Shown here: positions 22,518 to 49,102 of the stretch, in pieces | How the letters are laid out: every line of letters starts with the position of its first letter | Numbering within the stretch: position 1 is the first letter of the stretch | Assembly (NCBI GenBank): GCA_963169045.1 | Contig: CAUJDF010000069.1 | Span: forward strand, 62,001-126,000 | Length of the DNA: 64,000 nucleotides | Source of the DNA: Myxococcota bacterium | Lineage (GTDB): Bacteria; Myxococcota_A; Bradymonadia; UBA7976; UBA1532 | Direction: 5' to 3' | The notes under the pieces: model-generated | What the model was told of the DNA's origin: nothing | The model's database searches: none | Seen by the model: only the letters and a program-made list of their open reading frames with translations | Made by a program: the position numbers and the translations under genes

Positions 22518-24911
22518 CTACGGCTGCCGCCCGGCCCTGGCCTCCGCCGCGGCGACGTGCCGCTTCACCGCGACGAAGCTGTCGGGCGTCACCGAGAGGG
22601 AGTCGATGCCGGCGCCGACCAAGAAGCCGGCGTAGGGCGGGCGGTTGCTCGGCGCCTGCCCGCAGAAGCCCACCTTGCGGCCGGCGGCGTGGGCGCGGGC
22701 GACCACCTGCTCGATCAGCATCGTCACCGCGGCGTCCGACTCGTCGACGAGCCCGGCCAGGCGGGCCGAGTCGCGGTCGACGCCCAGCGTGAGCTGCGTC
22801 AGGTCGTTGCTGCCGATCGAGAACCCGTCGAAGCGTTCCGCGAACCGCTCGGCGAGGATCACGTTCGACGGGATCTCGCACATGACGTAGACCTCGAGCC
22901 CGTCCCGTCCGCGCTCGAGGCCGTTCTCCGCCATGACGGCGAGCACGCGGTCCGCCTCCTCGGGCGAGCGGCAGAAGGGGATCATGACCACCACGTTGCG
23001 CAGGCCCATCTCTTCGCGGACCTTGCGCAGCGCGGCGCACTCGAGCGCGAAGCCCTCGCGGTCGCCCTCGTCGTAGTAGCGGCTCGCCCCGCGCCAGCCG
23101 AGCATCGGGTTCTCCTCGTGGGGCTCGAACGCCCGCCCGCCGACGAGGTTCGCGTACTCGTTGGTCTTGAAGTCGCTCGTGCGCACGACGACGGGGCGCG
23201 GGCACCAGGCCGCGGCGATGCGTCCGATGCCGTACGCCAGCCGGTCGACGAAGTACTGGCGGCGGTCCTCGTAACCCCGCGTGATCTCTTCGATCTCGGC
23301 GCGGGCCTCCCGGTCGGTCACCCGGTCGGTGTGCACGAGCGCCATCGGGTGGACCTTGATCAGGGTGCCGACGATGAACTCCATGCGCGCGAGGCCGACG
23401 CCGTCGGCGGGCAGCCGCCACCACCGGAACGCGGCCACCGGGTTCGCGACGTTCAGCATCACCTTCGTCGCGGTCGCGGGGATGTCCTCGAGGCGCAGGT
23501 CGTGGGACTCGTACTCCGCGGCGCCGTCGTAGACGTGGCCCTCGTCGCCCTCGACGCACGAGACGGTGACCTCCTGGCCGTCGCGCAGCACGCGCATGGC
23601 GTCGCCGGTGCCGACGATCGCCGGGAGGCCGAGCTCGCGGCTGACGATCGCGGCGTGGGAGGTGCGCCCGCCGTGCTCGGTCACGATGGCCGCCGCCCTC
23701 TTCATCACCGGGACCCAGTCGGGATCGGTGATGCGCGTCACGAGGATCGCGCCCTCGGGGAAGAGGTCGCTCTCGCCGGGGTTGTCGAGGCGGCGCACCC
23801 GCCCCACGGCGAGCCCGCAGCCGACGGCGAGGCCCCTCGCGAGGCGCGGGCCCGTCTTCGTCAGGCGCCACGTCTTGATACCGCCGGCCTCGCGGCGCGA
23901 CTCGACCGTCTCCGGCCGCGCCTGCACGATGGCGAGCTCACCCGTCACGCCGTCCTTGGCCCACTCGATGTCCATCGCGCGCCCGTAGTGCCGCTCGATG
24001 GCGACCGCCCACCGCGCGAGCTGCAGAATCTCGGCGTCCGACAGGGCCGGGCGGCGGCGCTCGTCGTCGCTCGTGGGCACGGTGCGCGTGCGCCCGCCCT
24101 CCGCGTAGACGACCTTCTCCTCTTTGCGGCCGAGCGTCTTGTCGACGATGGGGACCCGCGCCGGATCGCCGAGCGCCGGCTTGTGCACCAGGTACTCGTC
24201 GGGATCGACCGTGCCCTGGACCACGGACTCGCCCAGACCCCACGCGGCGTTGATCAGCACCACGTCGGGGAAGCCGGACTCGGTGTCCAGGGTGAACATC
24301 ACGCCGGCGGCGCCGCGATCGGCGCGCACCATCCGCTGCACGCCCACCGAGAGGGCCACCTGGAGGTGGTCGAAGCCGTGGCGCTCGCGGTAGGCGATGG
24401 CGCGGTCGGTGTAGAGGGAGGCGAAGCAGAGGCGGCAGGCCTCGAGCAGCGCCTCCTCGCCGCGCACGTTGAGGAAGGACTCCTGTTGGCCGGCGAAGCT
24501 GGCGTCGGGCAGGTCCTCGGCGGTGGCGCTGCTGCGCACGGCGACCGGCGTGTCCGCGCCGCCCGCGCGGTCGCACAGCGCGCGGTAGGCCGCGCGGATG
24601 GCCGCCGCCGCCGGCGCCGGGAACCGGCCGCCGCCGATCAGGGCGCGGACGTCGCGGCCGACCGCCTCGAGCGGGGCCTCGCGACGTCGCAGCGCCTCGA
24701 GGCGTTCGGCGATGCGCGCGTCGAGCCCGTTGGCGGTCAGGAACTCGCGGAAGGTCGCCGCCGTCGTCGCGAAGCCCTCGGGGACGCGGACGCCGGCCGC
24801 CCCGAGGTGCCGCAGCAGCTCGCCCAGGGACGCGTTCTTGCCGCCCACCGTCGGGACGTCGCCCATGCCGAGATCGCGAAACCACAACACGGTCGACGTC
24901 CGCTCGCTCAT
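22518..24911 (-). CDS. ppsA: Phosphoenolpyruvate synthase
   Basis: 797 residues, full length. It converts pyruvate, ATP and water to PEP, AMP and phosphate for gluconeogenesis. The N-terminal nucleotide-binding part has VGGKNASLGE and VRSSATAEDLPDASFAGQQ. The swivel domain has TEHGGRTSHAA with phospho-His at His419. The PEP/pyruvate barrel has SIGSNDLTQLTLGVDRD and GFCGQAPSN with Cys750. These match E. coli PpsA (His421, Cys751). It faces the KamA-aminotransferase pair convergently. Confidence 0.96.
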   Translation of the reverse strand: MSERTSTVLWFRDLGMGDVPTVGGKNASLGELLRHLGAAGVRVPEGFATTAATFREFLTANGLDARIAERLEALRRREAPLEAVGRDVRALIGGGRFPAPAAAAIRAAYRALCDRAGGADTPVAVRSSATAEDLPDASFAGQQESFLNVRGEEALLEACRLCFASLYTDRAIAYRERHGFDHLQVALSVGVQRMVRADRGAAGVMFTLDTESGFPDVVLINAAWGLGESVVQGTVDPDEYLVHKPALGDPARVPIVDKTLGRKEEKVVYAEGGRTRTVPTSDDERRRPALSDAEILQLARWAVAIERHYGRAMDIEWAKDGVTGELAIVQARPETVESRREAGGIKTWRLTKTGPRLARGLAVGCGLAVGRVRRLDNPGESDLFPEGAILVTRITDPDWVPVMKRAAAIVTEHGGRTSHAAIVSRELGLPAIVGTGDAMRVLRDGQEVTVSCVEGDEGHVYDGAAEYESHDLRLEDIPATATKVMLNVANPVAAFRWWRLPADGVGLARMEFIVGTLIKVHPMALVHTDRVTDREARAEIEEITRGYEDRRQYFVDRLAYGIGRIAAAWCPRPVVVRTSDFKTNEYANLVGGRAFEPHEENPMLGWRGASRYYDEGDREGFALECAALRKVREEMGLRNVVVMIPFCRSPEEADRVLAVMAENGLERGRDGLEVYVMCEIPSNVILAERFAERFDGFSIGSNDLTQLTLGVDRDSARLAGLVDESDAAVTMLIEQVVARAHAAGRKVGFCGQAPSNRPPYAGFLVGAGIDSLSVTPDSFVAVKRHVAAAEARAGRQP

Positions 24912-25017: not shown

Positions 25018-26166
25018 TCACTGGACTTCGACGAACAGGCACTTGAGGTAGTCGGTCTCGGGGGCGGTGAGCAGCGAGGGGTGATCGGGGGCCGGACCGC
25101 GGCGCTCGATGACCCGCGCCCAGCGTCGCGCGTCGCCGGCGGCGTCGGCGACGGTCGCCTCGAAGGTGGCGCGGTCCATGTTGGCGCTGCACGAGCACGT
25201 GACCAGGAGGCCGCCGGGCCGCAGCAGCTTGAGCGCGCGCAGGTTGATCTCCTTGTAGGCGCGCCGGCCGGCCTCGAGGGCCGAGCGCGACTTCACGAAG
25301 GCCGGCGGGTCGAGCACGACGGTGTCGAACTGCCGACCGTCGCGCTCGTAGGCACGCAGCAGCTCGAACACATTGTCGCAGACCGTCTCGAGGGCGATGG
25401 CGTTGCGGTCGGCGTGGCGGCGCAGACGGCTGAGCGCCGGCTCGCTGCTGTCGACGGCGGTGACGTGGCAGCCCGCCCGCGCCATGCGGAGCGCGAAGCC
25501 GCCCTCGTAGCTGAAGCAGTCGAGGGCCTCGCCGCGGGCGCGCGCCGCGGCGGCGACGTGGTTGTCGACCTGGTCGAGGAAGGTGCCCGTCTTCTGGCCC
25601 TCCCACAGGTCGACGGCCCAGCGCAGGCCGGCGAGATCCACTTCGATCTCGGTAGGGCCCTCGCCGCGCACGATGGCCTTCTCCCGCGGGAGCCCCTCGT
25701 AGTCGCGGACCTTCGGCTCGTTGCGCGCGACGACCAGCCGCGCGCCGGTGAGCTGCGCGAGCCGGTCGGCGGTGCCCTCCAACCGGCGCGCGGCGGCCTG
25801 GGTGAGCGTCTGCAGGCCGAGGGCGTCGCCGTAGCGGTCGACGATCAGGCCGGGCAGGCCGTCGGCGTCACCGTTGACGAGGCGCGTGACCGGGGGCCGC
25901 CCCGCGCGGCGGGCGACCGAGGCCTCGAGGAGGCGGAGCCAGCCGGCCTCGGCGTCCATGCCCGGCGTGAGCGGGGTCAGGCGCAGCGCGATCTGCGACT
26001 GGTCGGACCACGCGCCCACCCCGACCACCAGGCCGTCGGGGCCCGCCACTTCGACGAGATCGCCGCCCCGGGCGTCGGCCGCGTTCTCGACATCGCTGCG
26101 GTAGATCCAGGGGTGGCCGCCGCGCAGGCGGCGCGCGCCCTTGCGCGTCAACCGGACGATGGCCAC
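25018..26166 (-). CDS. rlmI: Class I SAM-dependent rRNA cytosine methyltransferase, RlmI-like
   Basis: 382 residues. An N-terminal PUA-like domain (LRGGHPWIYRSDVEN) is followed by a central RlmI segment (LVNGDADGLPGLIVDRYG), then a Rossmann methyltransferase domain with DCFSYEGGFALRMA, VDSSEPAL, the VVLDPPAFVKS motif and TCSCS. RlmI methylates C1962 of 23S rRNA in E. coli. The start is GTG, four bases after the end of the repeat-rich KOW gene, so the two belong to one transcript. Confidence 0.9.
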   Translation of the reverse strand: MAIVRLTRKGARRLRGGHPWIYRSDVENAADARGGDLVEVAGPDGLVVGVGAWSDQSQIALRLTPLTPGMDAEAGWLRLLEASVARRAGRPPVTRLVNGDADGLPGLIVDRYGDALGLQTLTQAAARRLEGTADRLAQLTGARLVVARNEPKVRDYEGLPREKAIVRGEGPTEIEVDLAGLRWAVDLWEGQKTGTFLDQVDNHVAAAARARGEALDCFSYEGGFALRMARAGCHVTAVDSSEPALSRLRRHADRNAIALETVCDNVFELLRAYERDGRQFDTVVLDPPAFVKSRSALEAGRRAYKEINLRALKLLRPGGLLVTCSCSANMDRATFEATVADAAGDARRWARVIERRGPAPDHPSLLTAPETDYLKCLFVEVQ

Positions 26167-26169
26167 GGC

Positions 26170-27816
26170 TCAGCCGGGCCGACGCAGGTCGGCGGGGGCC
26201 ACGCGGACCTCGAGGTTGCCCACCTTGACCTTGTAATCGCCCTTCGGATCGCGGGCCGTGACGACGCCCTCCTTGCCGGCGAACAGGCCGCGCGTCAGGA
26301 GGCACGCGTCGCCGGCGGCGAAGTCCTCGATCGGGCGCGGCTTCTCGGTCGGCCGCGGCGCATCGGTCTCGCGCCGCGCCGCCTCCGTGTCACGTGGGCT
26401 CGCGCTCGGCCGCGCGCTGCGCGTCGGCGGCTCGCCGGCAGGCCACGGCGCGCGCTGCGGCCGTTCGCCTTCGGGGCGGGGACCGCGCTGCGGCCGGTCG
26501 CCTTCGGGGCGGGGACCGCGCTGCGGCCGTTCGCCTTCGGGGCGGGGACCGCGCTGCGGCCGTTCGCCTTCGGGGCGGGGACCGCGCTGCGGCCGTTCGG
26601 GACCGCCGCCGCGCCGCTCCGGACCACCGGCGGGGCGGTCGGGACCCCCTCGGCGCCGGTCCGAATCACCGGGAAGGCGGTCGGGACCTCCTCGGCGCCG
26701 GTCCGAATCACCGGGAAGGCGGTCGGGACCGCCGCCGCGCCGCTCGGCAGGCGCTTCGCCGGCGGGCCGCCGGTTGCCGCGGTCGTCGTCGGCTTCGGGT
26801 CGCGGGGCCTCGCCCGTCCACCGGTTGCCGCGATCTTCGTCGGCCGGCGCCTCGGGCGTCGGCGCCGGGCCCTCCCCGGGCGCCGCGGGGCCTTCGCCGG
26901 ACGGCGCGGGCCGACGGGACGGCGCGCTCTCCTCGAACGCCCGCGCGCGCCGCTGCGCCTGCAGCCGGCGCCATTCGTCGCGCTCCGCCTGCTGCGCCGC
27001 CGCGCGCTCCCGCGCCTCGCGCTCGCGAGCGTCGCGCTCGCGCTGCGCCTCCGCCTCGCGCTGCCGCGCCGAGGCGAGCTCGTCGAGCCGCCGGCCGACC
27101 CCCACGTAGTCGTTGTCGGGCCGCCACGCCACGAACCGGAACAACGGCAGCAACGCCTCGGCCACCGTCGCCGCCACGGCGCCGAGGCCCGCGGCGAGAC
27201 CGATCGCCGCGGCGCGGTCGAGCCGGCGTCCGAGCGACAGCCACTCCGCCTCGCCGGCGAGCGTCGACCGCGCCGCCGCCAGCAGCGCGTCGGCCGTGGC
27301 CCTGCGCCCGTCGAGCCGCACGTCGTCGGGCAGCGCCGCCAGCAGCGCCTCGAGCGCGCTCGGCTCCTGGGCGGCGCGCCCGACCAGGTTCGCGAGGTCG
27401 ACGCGCGCCAGCCGGTGCGCCCGCAGGCCGAGCTCGACGCCGTCGTGGTCGAGCCGCACGCAGAGCAGGAGGTGGCGGTGGTGCGGCGCCGCGTCGTGCA
27501 CCTTCGTCGCCAGGTCGAGGTCGGCGGCCACCAGCGTCTCGACCGTCTTGCGGTCGTCGGCCTCGCGCAGCAGGTACGCCCACTGGTCGCGCACCTGGCG
27601 GTTGTTCCAGATCCCCGGCGTCTCCTGCGAGGCGTCGAGGCCCAGGCGCAGGTCCGAGGCGGCCTCGCGCATCCGGCGCGCGAGGACGAGCACCCGCTCC
27701 TTGGTGCGCATACGGTCGAGGTTGTGGACGTTGCTCGACCAGCGGGACTCCGCGTACACGTCGAAGTCCTTCGCGGTCAGGCCCTCGAACTCGCCCACCA
27801 GGATGCCGCCGACCAT
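26170..27816 (-). CDS. KOW-domain protein with Arg/Gly/Pro-rich tandem repeats
   Basis: 548 residues, not a recognised named protein. Residues 1-245 are mostly helical and unrecognised, with GIWNNRQVRDQW and a hydrophobic patch (AAIGLAAGLGAVAATVAEALL). Residues 245-285 are a charged coiled coil (REAEAQRERDAREREARER). Residues 290-490 are disordered, with two copies of GGPDRLPGDSDRRR and four of RPQRGPRPEGE. The C-terminus (about 500-548) is a KOW-type motif (GDACLLTRGLFAGKEGVV), as in NusG and ribosomal proteins L24/L26. RGG-like repeats plus KOW suggest RNA or ribosome binding, supported by coupling to rlmI. A TTGTGG/TATAAC promoter lies upstream. Confidence 0.75.
   Translation of the reverse strand: MVGGILVGEFEGLTAKDFDVYAESRWSSNVHNLDRMRTKERVLVLARRMREAASDLRLGLDASQETPGIWNNRQVRDQWAYLLREADDRKTVETLVAADLDLATKVHDAAPHHRHLLLCVRLDHDGVELGLRAHRLARVDLANLVGRAAQEPSALEALLAALPDDVRLDGRRATADALLAAARSTLAGEAEWLSLGRRLDRAAAIGLAAGLGAVAATVAEALLPLFRFVAWRPDNDYVGVGRRLDELASARQREAEAQRERDAREREARERAAAQQAERDEWRRLQAQRRARAFEESAPSRRPAPSGEGPAAPGEGPAPTPEAPADEDRGNRWTGEAPRPEADDDRGNRRPAGEAPAERRGGGPDRLPGDSDRRRGGPDRLPGDSDRRRGGPDRPAGGPERRGGGPERPQRGPRPEGERPQRGPRPEGERPQRGPRPEGDRPQRGPRPEGERPQRAPWPAGEPPTRSARPSASPRDTEAARRETDAPRPTEKPRPIEDFAAGDACLLTRGLFAGKEGVVTARDPKGDYKVKVGNLEVRVAPADLRRPG
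26451..26600 (-). repeat. 33-base in-frame tandem repeat
   Basis: Four units of 33 bases at 26451-26483, 26484-26516, 26517-26549 and 26550-26582, plus a partial fifth, are nearly identical in DNA as well as protein. They encode an 11-residue unit (RPQRGPRPEGE). The near-identity at third positions points to recent expansion or gene conversion. Confidence 0.85.
26641..26724 (-). repeat. 42-base in-frame tandem duplication
   Basis: Two 42-base units (26641-26682, 26683-26724) encode the 14-residue GGPDRLPGDSDRRR. They differ by about one base, so the duplication looks recent. A degenerate third unit may precede them. Confidence 0.8.
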
Positions 27817-27889: not shown

Positions 27890-29134
27890 TCAGGCGCTGC
27901 GCAGCACGAGGGCCGCGTTGTGACCGCCGAAGCCGAACGAAGGGCACAACGCCAGCTTCACCGCGTGCGCCCGGGCCGTGTGCGGCACGTAGTCGAGGTC
28001 GCAGGCCGGATCGGGCTCGTTCAGGTGGAGGGTGGGGTGGATCTGGCCGGCCCGCATGCACAGCAGGGTCGCGGCGACCTCGATGGCGGCGGACGCGCCC
28101 AGGCTGTGGCCGGTCATCGACTTGGTGGCGCTCACCGGCACGGCGTCGGCGCGCGGGCCGAGCAGCGCCCGCAGGATGCGCGTCTCGCTGGCGTCGTTCA
28201 GGGGCGTGCCCGTGCCGTGGGCGTTCACCCAGTCGACGTCGGCCACGCCGGCGTCGGCGTCGCGCAGGGCCGCTTCGAGCGCGCGCCGCTGCGGCGCGCC
28301 CGTCGGATCGGGCACGGTCATGTGGTGCGCGTCGCAGGTGGCGCCATAACCGGCGAGCTCGCCGTAGACGCGCGCCCCGCGCGCCCGCGCATCGCCCTCG
28401 CGCTCGAGGACCATCAGCGCCGCGCCCTCGCCCATCACGAAGCCGTCGCGGTCGGCCGAGAAGGGGCGCGATGCCGTCTCCGGCGCGTCGTTGCGCTCCG
28501 AGAGCGCCCGCGCCTGGCCGAACGCGATCATCGCCGAGGGGACGACGGGCGCCTCGACCCCGCCGGCGACGACGCGATCGCAGCGCCCCGCCCGCAACAG
28601 CAGCAGCGCGTAACCGAGCGCGTCGGCGCTCGAGGAGCACGCCGTCGAGACGGTCACGCACGGGCCCTGCGCGCCGACCTCGATCGCCACCTGGGCCGCC
28701 GCGGCGTCGGCGAAGGTCGCGAGCACCGTCGTGGGCGGCACGGCGCGCGGTCCCCGGGTGAAGCACGCCTCGTGCGCGATCCAGACCCAGTCCATCGGCG
28801 CGCAGGTGCCGGTGACGACGGCGGTGCGCGCCCGCGCCTCGTCGTCGAGCGCGGCCGGATCGAGACCCGCGTCGGCCATCGCCAGGCGCGCCGCGACCAC
28901 GCCGAGCTGGCCCGTCCGGTCCATCCGCCGGATCTGCCGCGGCGACAGCCAGCGCTCGGGCCGGAAGTCCCGGATCCGACAAGCGATCGTGCTGCGCCAC
29001 CCCGCGGTGTCCCAGTCGTCGATGGCGACGCCGCCGCTCCGGCCGGCGAGCAGGCCGGCGGTGAACGCGTCGACGCCGATGCCGATGGGCGTGAGCACGC
29101 CGAGGCCGGTGACCACGACGCGCGGGCCGGCCAT
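27890..29134 (-). CDS. Beta-ketoacyl-ACP synthase II (FabF-like)
   Basis: 414 residues, thiolase fold condensing enzyme. STACSSS holds the active Cys166, NAHGTGTPLND the His306, KSMTGHSLGASAA the Lys338 and His343, and FGFGGHNA closes the active site. The Cys-His-His triad is complete, so it should condense malonyl-ACP with acyl-ACP. No other fatty acid synthesis gene is adjacent. Its start shares one base with the stop of the giant TPR gene (TGATG), an odd coupling; it may be a specialised rather than housekeeping FabF. Confidence 0.9.
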   Translation of the reverse strand: MAGPRVVVTGLGVLTPIGIGVDAFTAGLLAGRSGGVAIDDWDTAGWRSTIACRIRDFRPERWLSPRQIRRMDRTGQLGVVAARLAMADAGLDPAALDDEARARTAVVTGTCAPMDWVWIAHEACFTRGPRAVPPTTVLATFADAAAAQVAIEVGAQGPCVTVSTACSSSADALGYALLLLRAGRCDRVVAGGVEAPVVPSAMIAFGQARALSERNDAPETASRPFSADRDGFVMGEGAALMVLEREGDARARGARVYGELAGYGATCDAHHMTVPDPTGAPQRRALEAALRDADAGVADVDWVNAHGTGTPLNDASETRILRALLGPRADAVPVSATKSMTGHSLGASAAIEVAATLLCMRAGQIHPTLHLNEPDPACDLDYVPHTARAHAVKLALCPSFGFGGHNAALVLRSA

Positions 29135-32100
29135 CAGCGGCGGTCCAGGAGGCGGCGGGCCCGCAAGCCCCAGCGCCCCTCGGGGTCGAGCTGGGTCGCC
29201 TTCCGCAGCGCCGTCGCGCCCTCGTCGCGGCCGCGCGACGTCTCGCGCAGCACGCGGCCGAGCCAGTAGAACCCCTCGGGATCATTGGGGGAGACGGTGG
29301 TCGCCCGCGTGTAGTGCGCCACCGCGTCGTCGGTGTGGCCCTCGACCTCGGCCAGCTGGCCGAGGGCGACGAGCGTCGCCGGCAGGTCCACCTCGATGCG
29401 CTGGGCGCGGTCGAGGAGCGACGCCGCCCGGGGCGCCCCGCCGCCGCCGGACTGCAGCCACGCGCGCGCCTGGCTCGCCAGCGCCTCGGCGCGCAGGCGG
29501 CGGTGGGCCAGCCCCTGCTTCGCCAGGCGTTCGGCCTCCTCGGCGGCGGTGAGCGCGTCCTTCCACTCGCCTTGCAGCAGCCACGCCTGGGCGGCGCCGA
29601 GGGCCGCCCGGGCGCCGGCCCCGACCTTGAGCGCGCGCCGGTAGAAGCCGCCGGCCTGGTCCGACTTGCCCGCCTTCATCAGCGCGTCGGCGTGCGCGAG
29701 CTGCGCCCAGGGATCGTCGCCGAGCTCGTCGGCCACGCCGTTCAGCAGGGGGAGCGCCGCGCCGATGCTGCCGCGCTGGGCGGCCACGAGGCCGCGGATG
29801 TAGCGCTTCGTCGGGTCGTCGACCCCCGCGGCCTCGCCTTCGGCCAGCGCCGTCGCGTCGTCGGTGCGGCCGAGCGCGACGTAGGCCCGCGCGAGGCGCC
29901 GCACGAGCGCCGGCGGCTCCGGCTTCTTGCGCAGGATCGGCTCGAGCGCCGCCGCCACCGCGCCGGCGTCCTCCTGCGCCTCGGCGACGGTCGAGAGCAG
30001 CTCCGCCGCGGGGACGAAGTGCGGGTTCACGCCGAGCGCGTCGCGGCAGCGCTTGAGCGCGTCGCGGGCCTCGAGCCGGTCGGCGTCGAGGCGGCAGAGG
30101 CCGAAGTGGGCGAGGAAGTCGGCGTGGCTGACGTCGACGGCGCGCTGGTACTCGCCGGCGGCGGCGCGGGCGTCGCCGTCGCGGGCCAGCGCGTCGCCGT
30201 ACGCGCGGAAGGGCAGGGTGCGGTCCTCGAGGCGCTGTTCGCCGCTGGCCTGGCTCGACCGGTGCGCCTGCAGCTGCCCGAGCGCCAGGCCGCGCCGACC
30301 CTGCACGAACGCGGCGAGGCTCAGGTAGATGCGCGCGTCGAGCAGACCCGCGTCGAGGCGCAGCGCCTCGTTGAGCGCCTCCTCGGCACCGCGGGCGTTG
30401 TCGGTCGCGAGGAGCGCCCGCCCCCGCAGCAGCAGCGCGTCGGCGTCGGGCTGGCGCACCTTCTCGAGGTGGGCGAGCGCGCCCTTCGCGTCCCCGCGCA
30501 GCAGCCGCACGCGCGCCAGGTCGACGTGGTGCCGCTCGACGCTGCGGTCGAGCGCCGCCGCGCGCGTCAGCCGCTCCTCGGCCTCGTCGAGCTTGAACTC
30601 GCGGATGTCGAGGCGGGCGAGGCCGGTGGAGAAGCGCGGATCGTCGGGCGCCGCCTCGAGCGCGGCGGCGTATGCGGTGCGCGCCGAGGTGAAATCGCCC
30701 TGGTTCGAGTAGAAGAGGCCGATGCCGTCGTGGATCAGCGCCTTCTGGGCGTCGCTGACCTTCCAGGCGTCGGGATCGAGCAGCTCCTTGAGGTGGGCGA
30801 CCGCCTCCTGCTCCCGCTTGGGAATGAGGATCTGCAGGCGCGCGCGGGCGATGCGCGTGTCGACGTGGTCGGGGCGCAGCGACTCGAGGATCTGGTCGTA
30901 GCCCTCGAGCGCGCCGAGGTAGTCGCCGCGGCCGGCCTTGAGGTCGGCGAGCAGCTTGCGCGCGCCGACGTGGCGCGGATCGCGGTCGGCGGCGGTGCGC
31001 GCGCGGTCGACCGCGGCCTCGCGGCGGCCGTCGGCCTGGGCGACGAGGGCCTGCACGTACAGGACGTCGGCGCCCTGCTCCCCGACGGCGACCGCGAGCC
31101 GCGCCTCGGCGTCGGCGAGGCGGCCCTCGTGGAGCGCGAGCAGCGCCGACGCGATCGCGGCGTCCGCCGGCAGGTCGCCGTCGCCGTCGCCGGCCCGCGT
31201 GAGCGCGCTCTTCGCTGCCTCGGCGCGGGCCGGCTCGCCGAACAGGGCCACGCGCTCCGCCTCGACGCGGGCCTTCATCGCCGCCGCGGCGCGGTGCCGC
31301 CCGGCGAGGCCGCCCTGGCCGACGGCGCGCGCGGCGACGTCGCCGAGGCGGGCGAACGGATCGACGTCGAGCGTGGCGCCGAGGCGCTCGGAGGCGACGA
31401 GGCGGCTGCCGTAGTTGCCGTCGGCCAGGCCGTCGCGGGTGTCGGTCATCAGCCGGTCCACCTCGGACGCGGCGCCGCGGTAGCGCCAGATCGAGGTGAC
31501 GGCGAGGAGGAGCACGAGCACCGAGACGCCGAGCAGCGCGAGGCGGACGGCGCCGCGCACGCCGCGCCGGCCGACGACGATGGGGGCCGGCATCGTGGGC
31601 GGGGCGGCGGCCCGCGGCGAGGCGGCGGGCGCACGCTCCTCGACGAGCGCGCCGAGCTCGTCGGTGATCTCCTTGACCTCCGAGTCGCGGGCGTCGAAGT
31701 AGCTCGCGTAGTCCGTGCTGTAGTCGGGGGACGGCTCGCCGGCGGCGGTCGGGGAGGGTCGCACGGGGGCAGGCCGCTCCGCCGGCTCGGCCCTGCGGGC
31801 AGGCTCGGGCCGCGCGGCCGGCTCGGCCAGGCCGCGCGCGCGCGCCGGCTTCGCGGCGGGGCGGCGGGTGGCCCCCTCGGAGGGGTCGGCCGGGCGGCGG
31901 GCGGCGCCCTCGGATGCCTCCGCGGGGCGGCGGGCGGCGGGCCGGGCCACGGCTTCGGGGGGCTCGGCCGCGCGTGGGGCGACGGCCTTCGCCGGCGCGC
32001 CGGCGCGCGGCGACACGCCGCTGGGATCGGGACCGGGCAGCCGGTCGAGATCCGCGGGCGCCTCGTGCGCCGCCGGCGCGGACGGCGCGGGCGGCATGTC

Positions 32101-34272
32101 GGCGAACTCCGCGGGATCGAGAGGGATCTCGAGGAGGTCCGCCGCGGCCGGGCGCGCCTTCGGGATCGGCGGCGGCGCCGGCGGACGGCGGGGCGCGACC
32201 CGCGGCGCATCCGGCAGCGCCGCTTCGGACCGGGGCGGCGGCGGCACGCGCACGCCGGAGTCGGAGGCGGCGCGCGCCACGGGGCGCCGCGTCGACGCCT
32301 CCACCGACGGGATGGCGACGGCGGGATCGGAGCGCACGGAGCGCACGGCCGGCGTCTCGACCGACGGGATGGCGACCGCCGGATCGGAGTCGGCGGCCAG
32401 TCGCGGACCGGGGATCGGCGTCTCCGCGGTCGCCGGCTCGTCGCGCAGCAGGGCGGACGCGCGGTCGGGCCGCTCGTCGCTCGTCGGCCGGGCGCGCGAC
32501 GCGCCGGCGGCGGGCACGGAGCGGCTCTCGGCGCCGAACGGACGGCGGCGCGAGAGCGGGACGGTGCTCGACCGCGGCTCCTCGAGGTGGGCGGCGTCGA
32601 GGCCCGGGTCGAGGATCGAGTCGCGCTCGACGAGGGCCGCGGCGGAAGGGAGGGCCGTCGTCGGCTCCTCCCACGAGAAGCGGGGAAGGTCGAGCGCGCG
32701 CCCCGGGGGCACCGCGGGCGCGGGCGCCGCGGGGTCGCCGACGGGCACGGCCGTGGGCTCGTCGCCGAACGTCGCCGGCTCGCCGGCGGCCTCGCGCGGC
32801 GCCGGGTCGGGCAGCTCGACCTCGACCGAGAGCCAGTCCGCGTCGAGCCCGGTCGGCGCAGCGGGTGGCTCGATGACCGGCCGCGGCGCGGGCTCCGCGA
32901 ACGGCCGCGCCGGGAGGGTCGGCTGGGCGACGGGCCGGGGCGCGGCGACCGCGGAGGCGTCGCGCGGGCGGAGGGCGGGCTCGGCGATCGGCCGCGCCTC
33001 GACGGATGCCGGGCCGGCGGGCTCGGACGCGTCATGCGGGCGGAGGACGGGCTCGGCGATCGGAGGCGCCTCGATGGAAGCCGGGCCGGCGGGCTCGGAC
33101 GCGTCGTGCGGGTGGAGGGAGGGCTCGGCGAACGGCCGCGCGGGGGCCTCCGTGAACGGCGCGGCGATCGGGGGCACGGAGGCGTCGCGCGGGCGGAGCG
33201 AGGGCGCCGCGACCGGCGCGGCGCCCCGCGGGCGGAGGGCCGGCTCGTCGTGGGCGAGCGCGTCCTCGGGGGCGGGCGGCGGCGACGTCGTCGTGGGCCC
33301 CGTCGGATCGAAGCCCTCGTCGGCGGGCGCCTCGCCGGCGGCCGCCTCGTCGGCGTCGGGCAGGAGGAAGCCCGGCGAGGACATCTCCCGCGTCGCCTCT
33401 TCGTCGTCGTCGTCCTCGTCGAACGAGAAGGCGCCGCCGGCCGCCAGCGGGTCCGCCGCGAGGCCGGGCGACAGCGACTCGCGCGTGCAGCCGCCGGTGG
33501 CGGGGTGGGGCGGCTCGCCCTCGGCCGTCGGCTCCTCGTCGCTCGAGTCGTCGACGAACGCGAAGCGGGCCTTCGGCGCGGCGGGCGGCGGGGGCGCCGG
33601 CGGGCGCGGCAGCGGCTCGACCGGGCCGAGCGCGATGTCGTTGGCGTCGAGCTCGTTGCGGTACGCGTCGTCGATGATGACGCCGCTGGCCCCGTCGGCG
33701 GGCGCCGCCGGCGCCGCGACCGCCCGGATGTACCGCGTGCAGGTGCCGGGCCGGTCCGTGGCCGGCTCCGGCTCGAGGTCGGTGATGCTGCCGTCCGGCT
33801 CGCGGACGTGGATCGGCTCGTCGGTCGCCTCGCGCCGGTGCAGGAGCGCCGTCTCGGCGCGGGCGAGCTCGGTGCGGACCTCGCCGTCGGCGGGGGCCTC
33901 CTCGCGCGCCCGGCGCAGCACGACCCAGGCCTCCTCGGCGTGGCCGTCGGCGAGCAGCGCGCGGCCGAGCAGCTTCATCGCGCGGACCTCGCCGGCGTCG
34001 GCGGCCAGCACCCGTGCCGCTTCGCGCGTGCAGGCGCGCGTCCGGCCCAGCGCGAGCAGCGCCTCGGCCAGCAGCAGCCGGCCCTCGACGTGGTCGGGGC
34101 GCACGGCGAGCCCGACCGACGCCACCTCCTGGGCCCGGCGGGCGCGCCCGAGGTCGAGCAGGGCGCGCGCGAGGTCGACGAAGGCCTCCGACGCGGGATC
34201 GTCGCCGAAGGTGCGCTCCAGCGCGGCGATGTGCTCCACCGGGCTCGCCGGATCGGCGATGCGGTCGCTCAA
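29134..34272 (-). CDS. 1712-residue membrane TPR scaffold protein
   Basis: The N-terminal 160 residues form TPR-like helical repeats (ALLDLGRARRAQEVASVGLAVRP). Residues about 160-905 are low complexity and acidic or Pro/Ala-rich, with repeated LRPRDAS/LHPHDASEPAGPAS-type units and two DPAVAIPSVE. One membrane segment lies at about 910-930 (LALLGVSVLVLLLAV). Residues 935-1712 hold many TPRs, probably periplasmic. The likely start is TTG at 34272, overlapping a short upstream ATG reading frame that ends in TGA at the same place. TPRs mediate protein assembly; partners are unknown. FabF is translationally coupled downstream. Confidence 0.8.
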   Translation of the reverse strand: MSDRIADPASPVEHIAALERTFGDDPASEAFVDLARALLDLGRARRAQEVASVGLAVRPDHVEGRLLLAEALLALGRTRACTREAARVLAADAGEVRAMKLLGRALLADGHAEEAWVVLRRAREEAPADGEVRTELARAETALLHRREATDEPIHVREPDGSITDLEPEPATDRPGTCTRYIRAVAAPAAPADGASGVIIDDAYRNELDANDIALGPVEPLPRPPAPPPPAAPKARFAFVDDSSDEEPTAEGEPPHPATGGCTRESLSPGLAADPLAAGGAFSFDEDDDDEEATREMSSPGFLLPDADEAAAGEAPADEGFDPTGPTTTSPPPAPEDALAHDEPALRPRGAAPVAAPSLRPRDASVPPIAAPFTEAPARPFAEPSLHPHDASEPAGPASIEAPPIAEPVLRPHDASEPAGPASVEARPIAEPALRPRDASAVAAPRPVAQPTLPARPFAEPAPRPVIEPPAAPTGLDADWLSVEVELPDPAPREAAGEPATFGDEPTAVPVGDPAAPAPAVPPGRALDLPRFSWEEPTTALPSAAALVERDSILDPGLDAAHLEEPRSSTVPLSRRRPFGAESRSVPAAGASRARPTSDERPDRASALLRDEPATAETPIPGPRLAADSDPAVAIPSVETPAVRSVRSDPAVAIPSVEASTRRPVARAASDSGVRVPPPPRSEAALPDAPRVAPRRPPAPPPIPKARPAAADLLEIPLDPAEFADMPPAPSAPAAHEAPADLDRLPGPDPSGVSPRAGAPAKAVAPRAAEPPEAVARPAARRPAEASEGAARRPADPSEGATRRPAAKPARARGLAEPAARPEPARRAEPAERPAPVRPSPTAAGEPSPDYSTDYASYFDARDSEVKEITDELGALVEERAPAASPRAAAPPTMPAPIVVGRRGVRGAVRLALLGVSVLVLLLAVTSIWRYRGAASEVDRLMTDTRDGLADGNYGSRLVASERLGATLDVDPFARLGDVAARAVGQGGLAGRHRAAAAMKARVEAERVALFGEPARAEAAKSALTRAGDGDGDLPADAAIASALLALHEGRLADAEARLAVAVGEQGADVLYVQALVAQADGRREAAVDRARTAADRDPRHVGARKLLADLKAGRGDYLGALEGYDQILESLRPDHVDTRIARARLQILIPKREQEAVAHLKELLDPDAWKVSDAQKALIHDGIGLFYSNQGDFTSARTAYAAALEAAPDDPRFSTGLARLDIREFKLDEAEERLTRAAALDRSVERHHVDLARVRLLRGDAKGALAHLEKVRQPDADALLLRGRALLATDNARGAEEALNEALRLDAGLLDARIYLSLAAFVQGRRGLALGQLQAHRSSQASGEQRLEDRTLPFRAYGDALARDGDARAAAGEYQRAVDVSHADFLAHFGLCRLDADRLEARDALKRCRDALGVNPHFVPAAELLSTVAEAQEDAGAVAAALEPILRKKPEPPALVRRLARAYVALGRTDDATALAEGEAAGVDDPTKRYIRGLVAAQRGSIGAALPLLNGVADELGDDPWAQLAHADALMKAGKSDQAGGFYRRALKVGAGARAALGAAQAWLLQGEWKDALTAAEEAERLAKQGLAHRRLRAEALASQARAWLQSGGGGAPRAASLLDRAQRIEVDLPATLVALGQLAEVEGHTDDAVAHYTRATTVSPNDPEGFYWLGRVLRETSRGRDEGATALRKATQLDPEGRWGLRARRLLDRR

Positions 34273-45442: not shown

Positions 45443-45447
45443 CCGGC

Positions 45448-45647
45448 GACGTCCCCGGCGCCATCCGTGTCGGCGCCGCGCGGACGGCGCGCTTGGCCGG
45501 CGCGGCGCACCGTCGACGTCCCCGGCGCCATCCGTGTCGGCGCCGCTGGCCGGCGCGCTTGGCCGGCGCGGCGCACCGTCGACGTCCCCGGCGCCATCCG
45601 TGCCGGCGCCGCGCGGACGGCGCGCTTGGCCGGCGCGGCGCACCGTC
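45448..45647. repeat. Three tandem 66-67-base non-coding repeats
   Basis: Units at 45448-45514 (67), 45515-45580 (66) and 45581-45647 (67) begin GACGTCCCCGGCGCCATCCG and include CGCTTGGCCGGCGCGGCGCA. A partial fourth unit follows. Because 67 and 66 are not both multiples of three, no single frame reads the repeat as protein. They fill most of the 264 bases between the GNAT and orphan genes. Several self-complementary stretches (GGCGCC, GGCCGGCGC) could form hairpins. Confidence 0.85.
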
Positions 45648-45706
45648 GACGTCGTTCTCGGCGCCCGGGCGTTGACGCGCCCCGCGGCGCGTGCGAGCAA
45701 CGGCGC

Positions 45707-48746: not shown

Positions 48747-48754
48747 GCACGCGC

Positions 48755-48883
48755 GTTCGCGCCCCTGGCCACTCGTCGAGCGGCCGACCCCGCGAACGTT
48801 CGCGCCCCTCGCCACGCGTCGACTGACCGACCCCGCGAACGTTCGCGCCCCTCGCCACGCGTCGGGTGATCGACCCCGCGAAC
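48755..48883. repeat. Three 43-base tandem repeats joined by 14-base palindromes
   Basis: Units at 48755-48797, 48798-48840 and 48841-48883 start with GTTCGCGCCCCT. At each internal junction the sequence is CGCGAACGTTCGCG (48791-48804 and 48834-48847), a perfect palindrome repeated 43 bases apart. Since 43 is not a multiple of three, the array is not a protein repeat. Half palindromes border both ends. Confidence 0.85.
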
Positions 48884-49102
48884 GCATCGCCGCGCCTCGC
48901 GGCCCGCTCGACCGCCTTCTCCGGCTCGATGTCGACGCCCAGGTCGCGAAGCAGGGCGAAAGCAGGGCCGGCGTCGCTCGCCTCGCCGCCGATGGCGTCT
49001 CCACCGCTTCCGTCGATCGGGGCGCCTGCGCGACCCGCAGCCGCGGCCCGATCGGCGAGCCGGCGTCCTCCCACAAGGACGCGATAGGCATCGGCGAGGG
49101 CC
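48884..49102 (-). other. Possible gene remnant between repeat array and ABC operon
   Basis: On the minus strand one frame reads protein-like text (LLRDLGVDIEPEKAVERAAR), but it lacks a good start and runs into the repeat array. It may be a decayed gene or spacer; no family recognised. Otherwise the interval has no gene. Confidence 0.25.

Follow-up and report, generated by a model that had tools for sequence, protein, structure and literature searches.

A Myxococcota protein family that pairs a predicted DUF1054/YktB-like domain with a C-terminal KOW domain

The DUF1054/YktB proteins (PF06335) have solved structures, those of B. subtilis YktB (2a8e) and a Leptospirillum DUF1054 protein (3mqz) among them, and the literature that we found reports a function for no DUF1054 protein. 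KOW domains are present in uL24, NusG and Spt5, and the KOW of NusG is the end of that protein that faces the ribosome or Rho. The KOWs of B. subtilis MutS2 and NusG bind the ribosomal protein uS10, and in MutS2 the residues of the uS10-contact loop are Q668, I671, L672 and K673 (PMC10897456). Here we describe a gene from a Myxococcota bacterium, located in a window of 64,000 nt (the whole stretch of DNA that was analysed), whose product joins a domain of the first kind to one of the second. The architecture is new, while its parts were already known.

The N-terminal domain has the same predicted fold as the DUF1054/YktB proteins over nearly the whole chain. It differs from them in that the identity is 10–15%, the Pfam model misses the domain, a helix and a loop are inserted between the second and third strands, the RRxVNPP...W...RGYK stretch common to 2a8e and 3mqz is absent from the family alignment, and the domain is fused to a KOW. 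DUF2461 (PF09365) aligns by profile with the C-terminal half of this domain, but it carries no KOW and its sequence motifs are different. The C-terminal domain shares the KOW motif and its invariant glycines with uL24, NusG and Spt5, and its terminal position with NusG. However, the protein gave no Pfam match to the NGN domain that would precede a KOW and has no ribosomal-protein context, the barrel is divergent in its second half, and the SIFG stretch of E. coli NusG (F165) is absent. With MutS2 (KOW-SMR) and the MSSS domain the family KOW shares the loop length V-x-V-G-x-L, whereas Pfam found neither an ABC ATPase nor an SMR domain in the window protein, and the uS10-contact residues are mostly missing.

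The gene and its two folded ends

The open reading frame is intact and starts with ATG, and homologues that keep both end domains in frame show it to be a real gene. It belongs to a same-strand run consisting of a TPR protein gene (29134-34272), a fabF-like gene, the KOW gene, an rlmI-like gene and a gene for a PEP-utilising enzyme (22518-24911) (Table 1). The KOW gene has its stop at 26170 and the rlmI-like gene its start at 26166, which leaves the gap of three bases described in the earlier note. An Rfam search across the whole window gave no match. The TPR protein has 1712 aa, a long low-complexity middle and tandem repeats of its own (31854-31938 and 32952-33141); five further loci of the same GTDB family also have a TPR relative upstream of their copy of the KOW gene.

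Table 1. Features of the KOW gene and its immediate neighbours in the window
Feature	Coordinates	Strand	Basis
Whole gene: DUF1054-like domain, charged helix, Arg/Pro/Gly-rich linker, KOW; 548 aa	26170..27816	-	ORF and family homologues
Predicted N-terminal DUF1054/YktB-fold domain, residues 10-238	27103..27789	-	AlphaFold2 pLDDT 84.5; 2a8e Z 17.7, 3mqz Z 15.1; Foldseek E 1.1e-4
Charged, predicted-helical stretch, about residues 245-297	26926..27084	-	Helix inferred from sequence
Arg/Pro/Gly/Glu-rich low-complexity linker, about residues 298-498	26323..26925	-	Composition; length variable in family
Three 14-aa repeats, GGPDRLPGDSDRRR type, residues 362-403	26608..26733	-	Tandem Repeats Finder and sequence
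Five 11-aa repeats, RPQRGPRPEGE type, residues 408-462, nearly identical DNA	26431..26595	-	Tandem Repeats Finder and sequence
C-terminal KOW domain, residues 499-548	26173..26322	-	Pfam KOW 23.7 bits isolated; family KOW profile
rlmI-like 23S rRNA m5C methyltransferase, downstream neighbour	25018..26166	-	Pfam PUA_3 and Methyltrans_SAM; NCBIfam below cut-off
fabF-like beta-ketoacyl-ACP synthase, upstream neighbour	27890..29134	-	Pfam/NCBIfam; upstream in L023 and L025 too

The N-terminus had been described as helical and unrecognised. The latter holds for profile libraries: none of Pfam, NCBIfam and PHROGs identifies the N-domain, and the last two gave no match anywhere in the window protein. 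PF06335 did not match the window protein at E up to 10 (the Pfam cut-off is 27 bits), and it matched 1 of 50 family members at E 0.12, short of the curated score; DUF2461 was absent from the Pfam matches of all 50 and thus did not reach its curated score. When the N-domain profile was run by hmmsearch against the PDB sequences, chance matches only were returned, and structure was therefore needed to recognise homology.

We modelled residues 1-238 of the window protein with AlphaFold2, using an alignment with nine relatives, and obtained a model with a pLDDT of 84.5 and a pTM of 0.82. It is an alpha/beta fold, not simply a helical one. A Foldseek search with this model returned 2a8e at the top and 3mqz next, and no match among the viral models. 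In VIA-align, the model superposed on 2a8e with Z 17.7 and rmsd 2.8 (195/210 residues aligned) and on 3mqz with Z 15.1 and rmsd 3.4 (184/205 residues aligned); the next unrelated chain reached Z 3.7. A second AlphaFold2 model, made for a short-linker relative (L094), again had 2a8e as its best match (E 1.4e-5). The possibility raised at the outset that the N-terminus would match a known unrelated enzyme did not materialise.

Profile comparison gave results in the same direction. Against a profile of 2a8e plus a portion of 3mqz, the family profile aligned end to end over 199 columns with a score of 26.3, where the highest of 150 shuffles reached 21.3. With DUF2461, the alignment covered the C-terminal half of the N-domain over 112 columns and scored 34.1, compared with at most 25.1 in 150 shuffles. 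The hhalign probabilities are low, 11% for DUF1054 and 46% for DUF2461, so the sequence comparison backs the structure and is insufficient by itself for a claim of fold. A Pfam DUF1054 scan gave a match in none of 188 genomes of the phylum, while the B. subtilis and L. lactis controls were positive, which makes the N-domain a diverged relative lying outside the Pfam family as defined. From the predicted structure, backed by the profile comparison, we conclude that the fold of the first ~230 residues is that of DUF1054/YktB. Within it R35, R84, A137 and D140 are invariant, and S28, P67, N71, V75 and W231 nearly so. The genome itself also carries a separate, ordinary DUF2461 gene (G000:C75:131417-132046, L087).

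At the other end, the last ~50 residues form a KOW SH3-like barrel, in agreement with the terminal KOW proposed earlier. PF00467 gives 23.7 bits with the isolated 50 residues against a cut-off of 22.3, and 18.9 in the full-length protein; it also matches the C-termini in 22 of 23 members, and across the 23 two glycines of the motif are invariant and four nearly invariant. Searched against the PDB, the family KOW profile found uL24 (E 1.5e-6), Spt5 (5.3e-6) and NusG (9.2e-6). The AlphaFold2 confidence over the KOW is modest (pLDDT about 58-74). The MutS2/Smr SH3 model MSSS (PF20297) weakly matches 16 of the 23 KOWs, and the window KOW scores 22.7 bits with it, under the curated 26.8. When the MutS2 contact loop was compared with the family, a hydrophobic residue at the position of L672 alone was kept; the window protein has K, N and E at the others, with E in place of K673. 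As the contact residues are mostly unmatched, docking on uS10 in the manner of MutS2 lacks residue support. Thus the KOW could dock on the ribosome, but its residues do not demonstrate MutS2-style docking.

Distribution of the family and variability of the linker

Family searches were run within Myxococcota genomes. The profile search with the N-terminus that had been suggested earlier did find relatives: with the N-terminal 239 residues as query, they were detected in 15 of 57 near genomes, a set that includes 11 of the 13 belonging to the same GTDB family. A 50-row profile of the N-domain detected the family in 106 genomes out of a phylum-wide sample of 378, essentially always as one gene per genome. 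A tblastn search of plasmids with the family gave no match. We extracted the gene from 55 loci, nine of which were cut by a contig end, and all 46 uncut members have the KOW domain at the terminus. These data show an unnamed, single-copy Myxococcota family with two conserved folded ends and a variable tether, and a mostly vertical descent.

In this genome, the tether between the folded ends is ~260 residues long, Arg-rich and repeat-bearing. It opens with the charged, predicted-helical stretch that had been put forward as a charged coiled coil; the charge and the predicted helix stand. The repeats claimed for the linker that follows are also present, as five 11-aa and three 14-aa copies, and Tandem Repeats Finder gives the two arrays scores of 291 and 207, which rank near the top for the window. 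Copies 1, 2 and 4 of the 11-aa repeat are identical in all 33 nt, silent positions included, indicating a recent expansion. Elsewhere in the window, tandem arrays occur at 45443-45653 (period 67 bp, 3.2 copies, 94%) and 48754-48900 (period 43 bp, 3.4 copies, 88%), and neither period is divisible by three.

The repeats had been called RGG-like, a description that the composition does not bear out. Residues 301-500 contain 42 R, 1 K, 22 E, 16 D, 43 P and 31 G, with 4 RGG and 3 aromatics, and thus do not show the clustered RGG with aromatics of an RGG/RG box. The stretch carries a net charge of +0.025 per residue, with positive and negative residues segregated no more than in shuffles. Judged by its composition, the linker is a mixed-charge, extended polyampholyte rather than an RGG box, and offers no particular reason to expect condensates.

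Across the family, the inter-domain linker ranges from about 20 to 300 residues; linkers above 100 aa in other members are Arg- or Lys-rich and net positive, and in one half of the complete members the linker is short. On the N-domain tree, the state changed between long and short at least six times. Since the length varies and has changed so often, we consider the repeats a local expansion. The member at locus L025, from the same GTDB family, has a linker of only ~30 residues and yet keeps the KOW, fabF and rlmI, which argues that the repeats do not belong to the core of the protein. They are a species-level decoration, not its heart.

Genomic neighbours in different lineages

The coupling to rlmI inferred from this single locus did not extend to the family. 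Among eight genomes of the same GTDB family that offered enough sequence, six have rlmI beginning 3-54 nt after the stop of the family gene; it does not adjoin the gene in L020 or L021, which belong to that GTDB family too, and none was found in the fetched flanks of loci from other GTDB families. We therefore rejected rlmI as a universal partner, the linkage being confined to one GTDB family. L020 and L021, which lack the adjoining rlmI, represent one genus and have NFACT/RqcH-like ORFs 2-2.8 kb downstream (552 and 492 aa, respectively; 45% identical), which we identified by eye. In B. subtilis, RqcH acts in ribosome quality control alongside MutS2. NFACT/RqcH was rejected as a general partner, being present in L020 and L021 only.

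Other lineages have other neighbours. A PSP1-domain gene (PSP1 is the RicT/YaaT domain) lies directly upstream in another GTDB family (L026:6415-7863, L029:888-2462 and also L027), where it follows a DNA polymerase III delta-prime-like ORF. Seven loci drawn from three GTDB families, L052:5691-7346 and L056:8940-10433 among them, have a ChaN/Tiki-like gene (PF04187) or a homologue immediately upstream, a linkage that spans more GTDB families than that of rlmI. In further lineages, the directly upstream gene is a class IV aminotransferase. Each of these three neighbours keeps to its own lineages. No single pathway emerges from the gene context, and the neighbours are not consistently translational.

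Possible roles of the family and what they would mean

Because the KOW is universal at the C-terminus, association with the ribosome, RNA or a transcription complex is the leading idea. The suggestion in the earlier note of a new ribosome- or RNA-associated factor thus keeps its place, now for an unnamed family. We propose a housekeeping protein in which a flexible tether connects a DUF1054-like effector domain to a KOW that serves as docking module; it would most likely act on ribosomes or transcription complexes. We judge the chances of this proposal to be evenly balanced. Through its KOW end the protein would attach to a ribonucleoprotein machine, for which the ribosome is the most likely candidate and RNA polymerase or rRNA are less likely ones. 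The flexible tether would then let the DUF1054-like domain act near the docking site, its few invariant residues probably being the working or structural core, and the repeats may tune the length of the tether and add diffuse charge without being the active part. A more specific version, modelled on the uS10 binding of MutS2 and NusG, would have the KOW dock on the small subunit and deliver the DUF1054-like domain there, as a phylum-specific ribosome-associated factor; we consider it rather unlikely.

The KOW might instead bind RNA polymerase or nucleic acid rather than the ribosome, in a transcription-associated factor resembling NusG or Spt5. Both of these proteins are among the top PDB matches of the KOW profile, weak matches to the UpxY antiterminator model occur in 18 of 34 members and to NusG in 6, and a single member resembles, again weakly, a phage antiterminator family. 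However, these KOW matches mostly span the shared first 26-36 positions, the place of an NGN domain is taken by one with the predicted DUF1054 fold, and in NusG itself the KOW faces the ribosome or Rho; on balance we find this reading rather improbable. We hold it to be similarly doubtful that the DUF1054-like domain has a small-molecule or enzyme function unrelated to RNA, with the KOW serving just as a protein-protein adaptor. DUF1054 proteins elsewhere do without a KOW (the 2a8e and 3mqz chains have 220 and 215 aa), and the upstream genes in several lineages, class IV aminotransferase and ChaN-like, are metabolic, whereas the retention of the KOW in every complete member argues that docking matters phylum-wide.

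A dedicated partner of RlmI, which would assist 50S assembly or the 23S rRNA methyltransferase and grip the rRNA with its Arg-rich tail, is less probable still. It would account for the directly downstream rlmI in the same GTDB family and for the similarity of the KOW to uL24, but not for L020, L021 or the fetched loci of other families, where rlmI is not adjacent, nor for L025, which has rlmI and a short linker. Least probable is a condensate-forming protein of the RGG type, whose main function would be phase separation with RNA. The R/G/P-rich low-complexity linker of this genome and the long R-rich linkers in other families would fit such a function; its charges are well mixed, however, RGG and aromatic residues are few, and the short-linkered half of the complete members, L025 with its KOW and rlmI included, speaks against the earlier idea of phase separation as a property of the family.

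For a superfamily with solved structures and no function reported in the literature that we found, the phylum-wide fusion of a DUF1054-like fold to a KOW is a clue that at least one branch works on ribosomes or transcription complexes. Annotation based on Pfam misses the DUF1054-like fold in the whole phylum, with matches in 0 of 188 genomes compared with a hidden relative in 106 of 378. If the ribosome-factor reading is true, the DUF1054/YktB superfamily, whose structure was released in 2005, would for the first time be given a part in translation or ribosome quality control.
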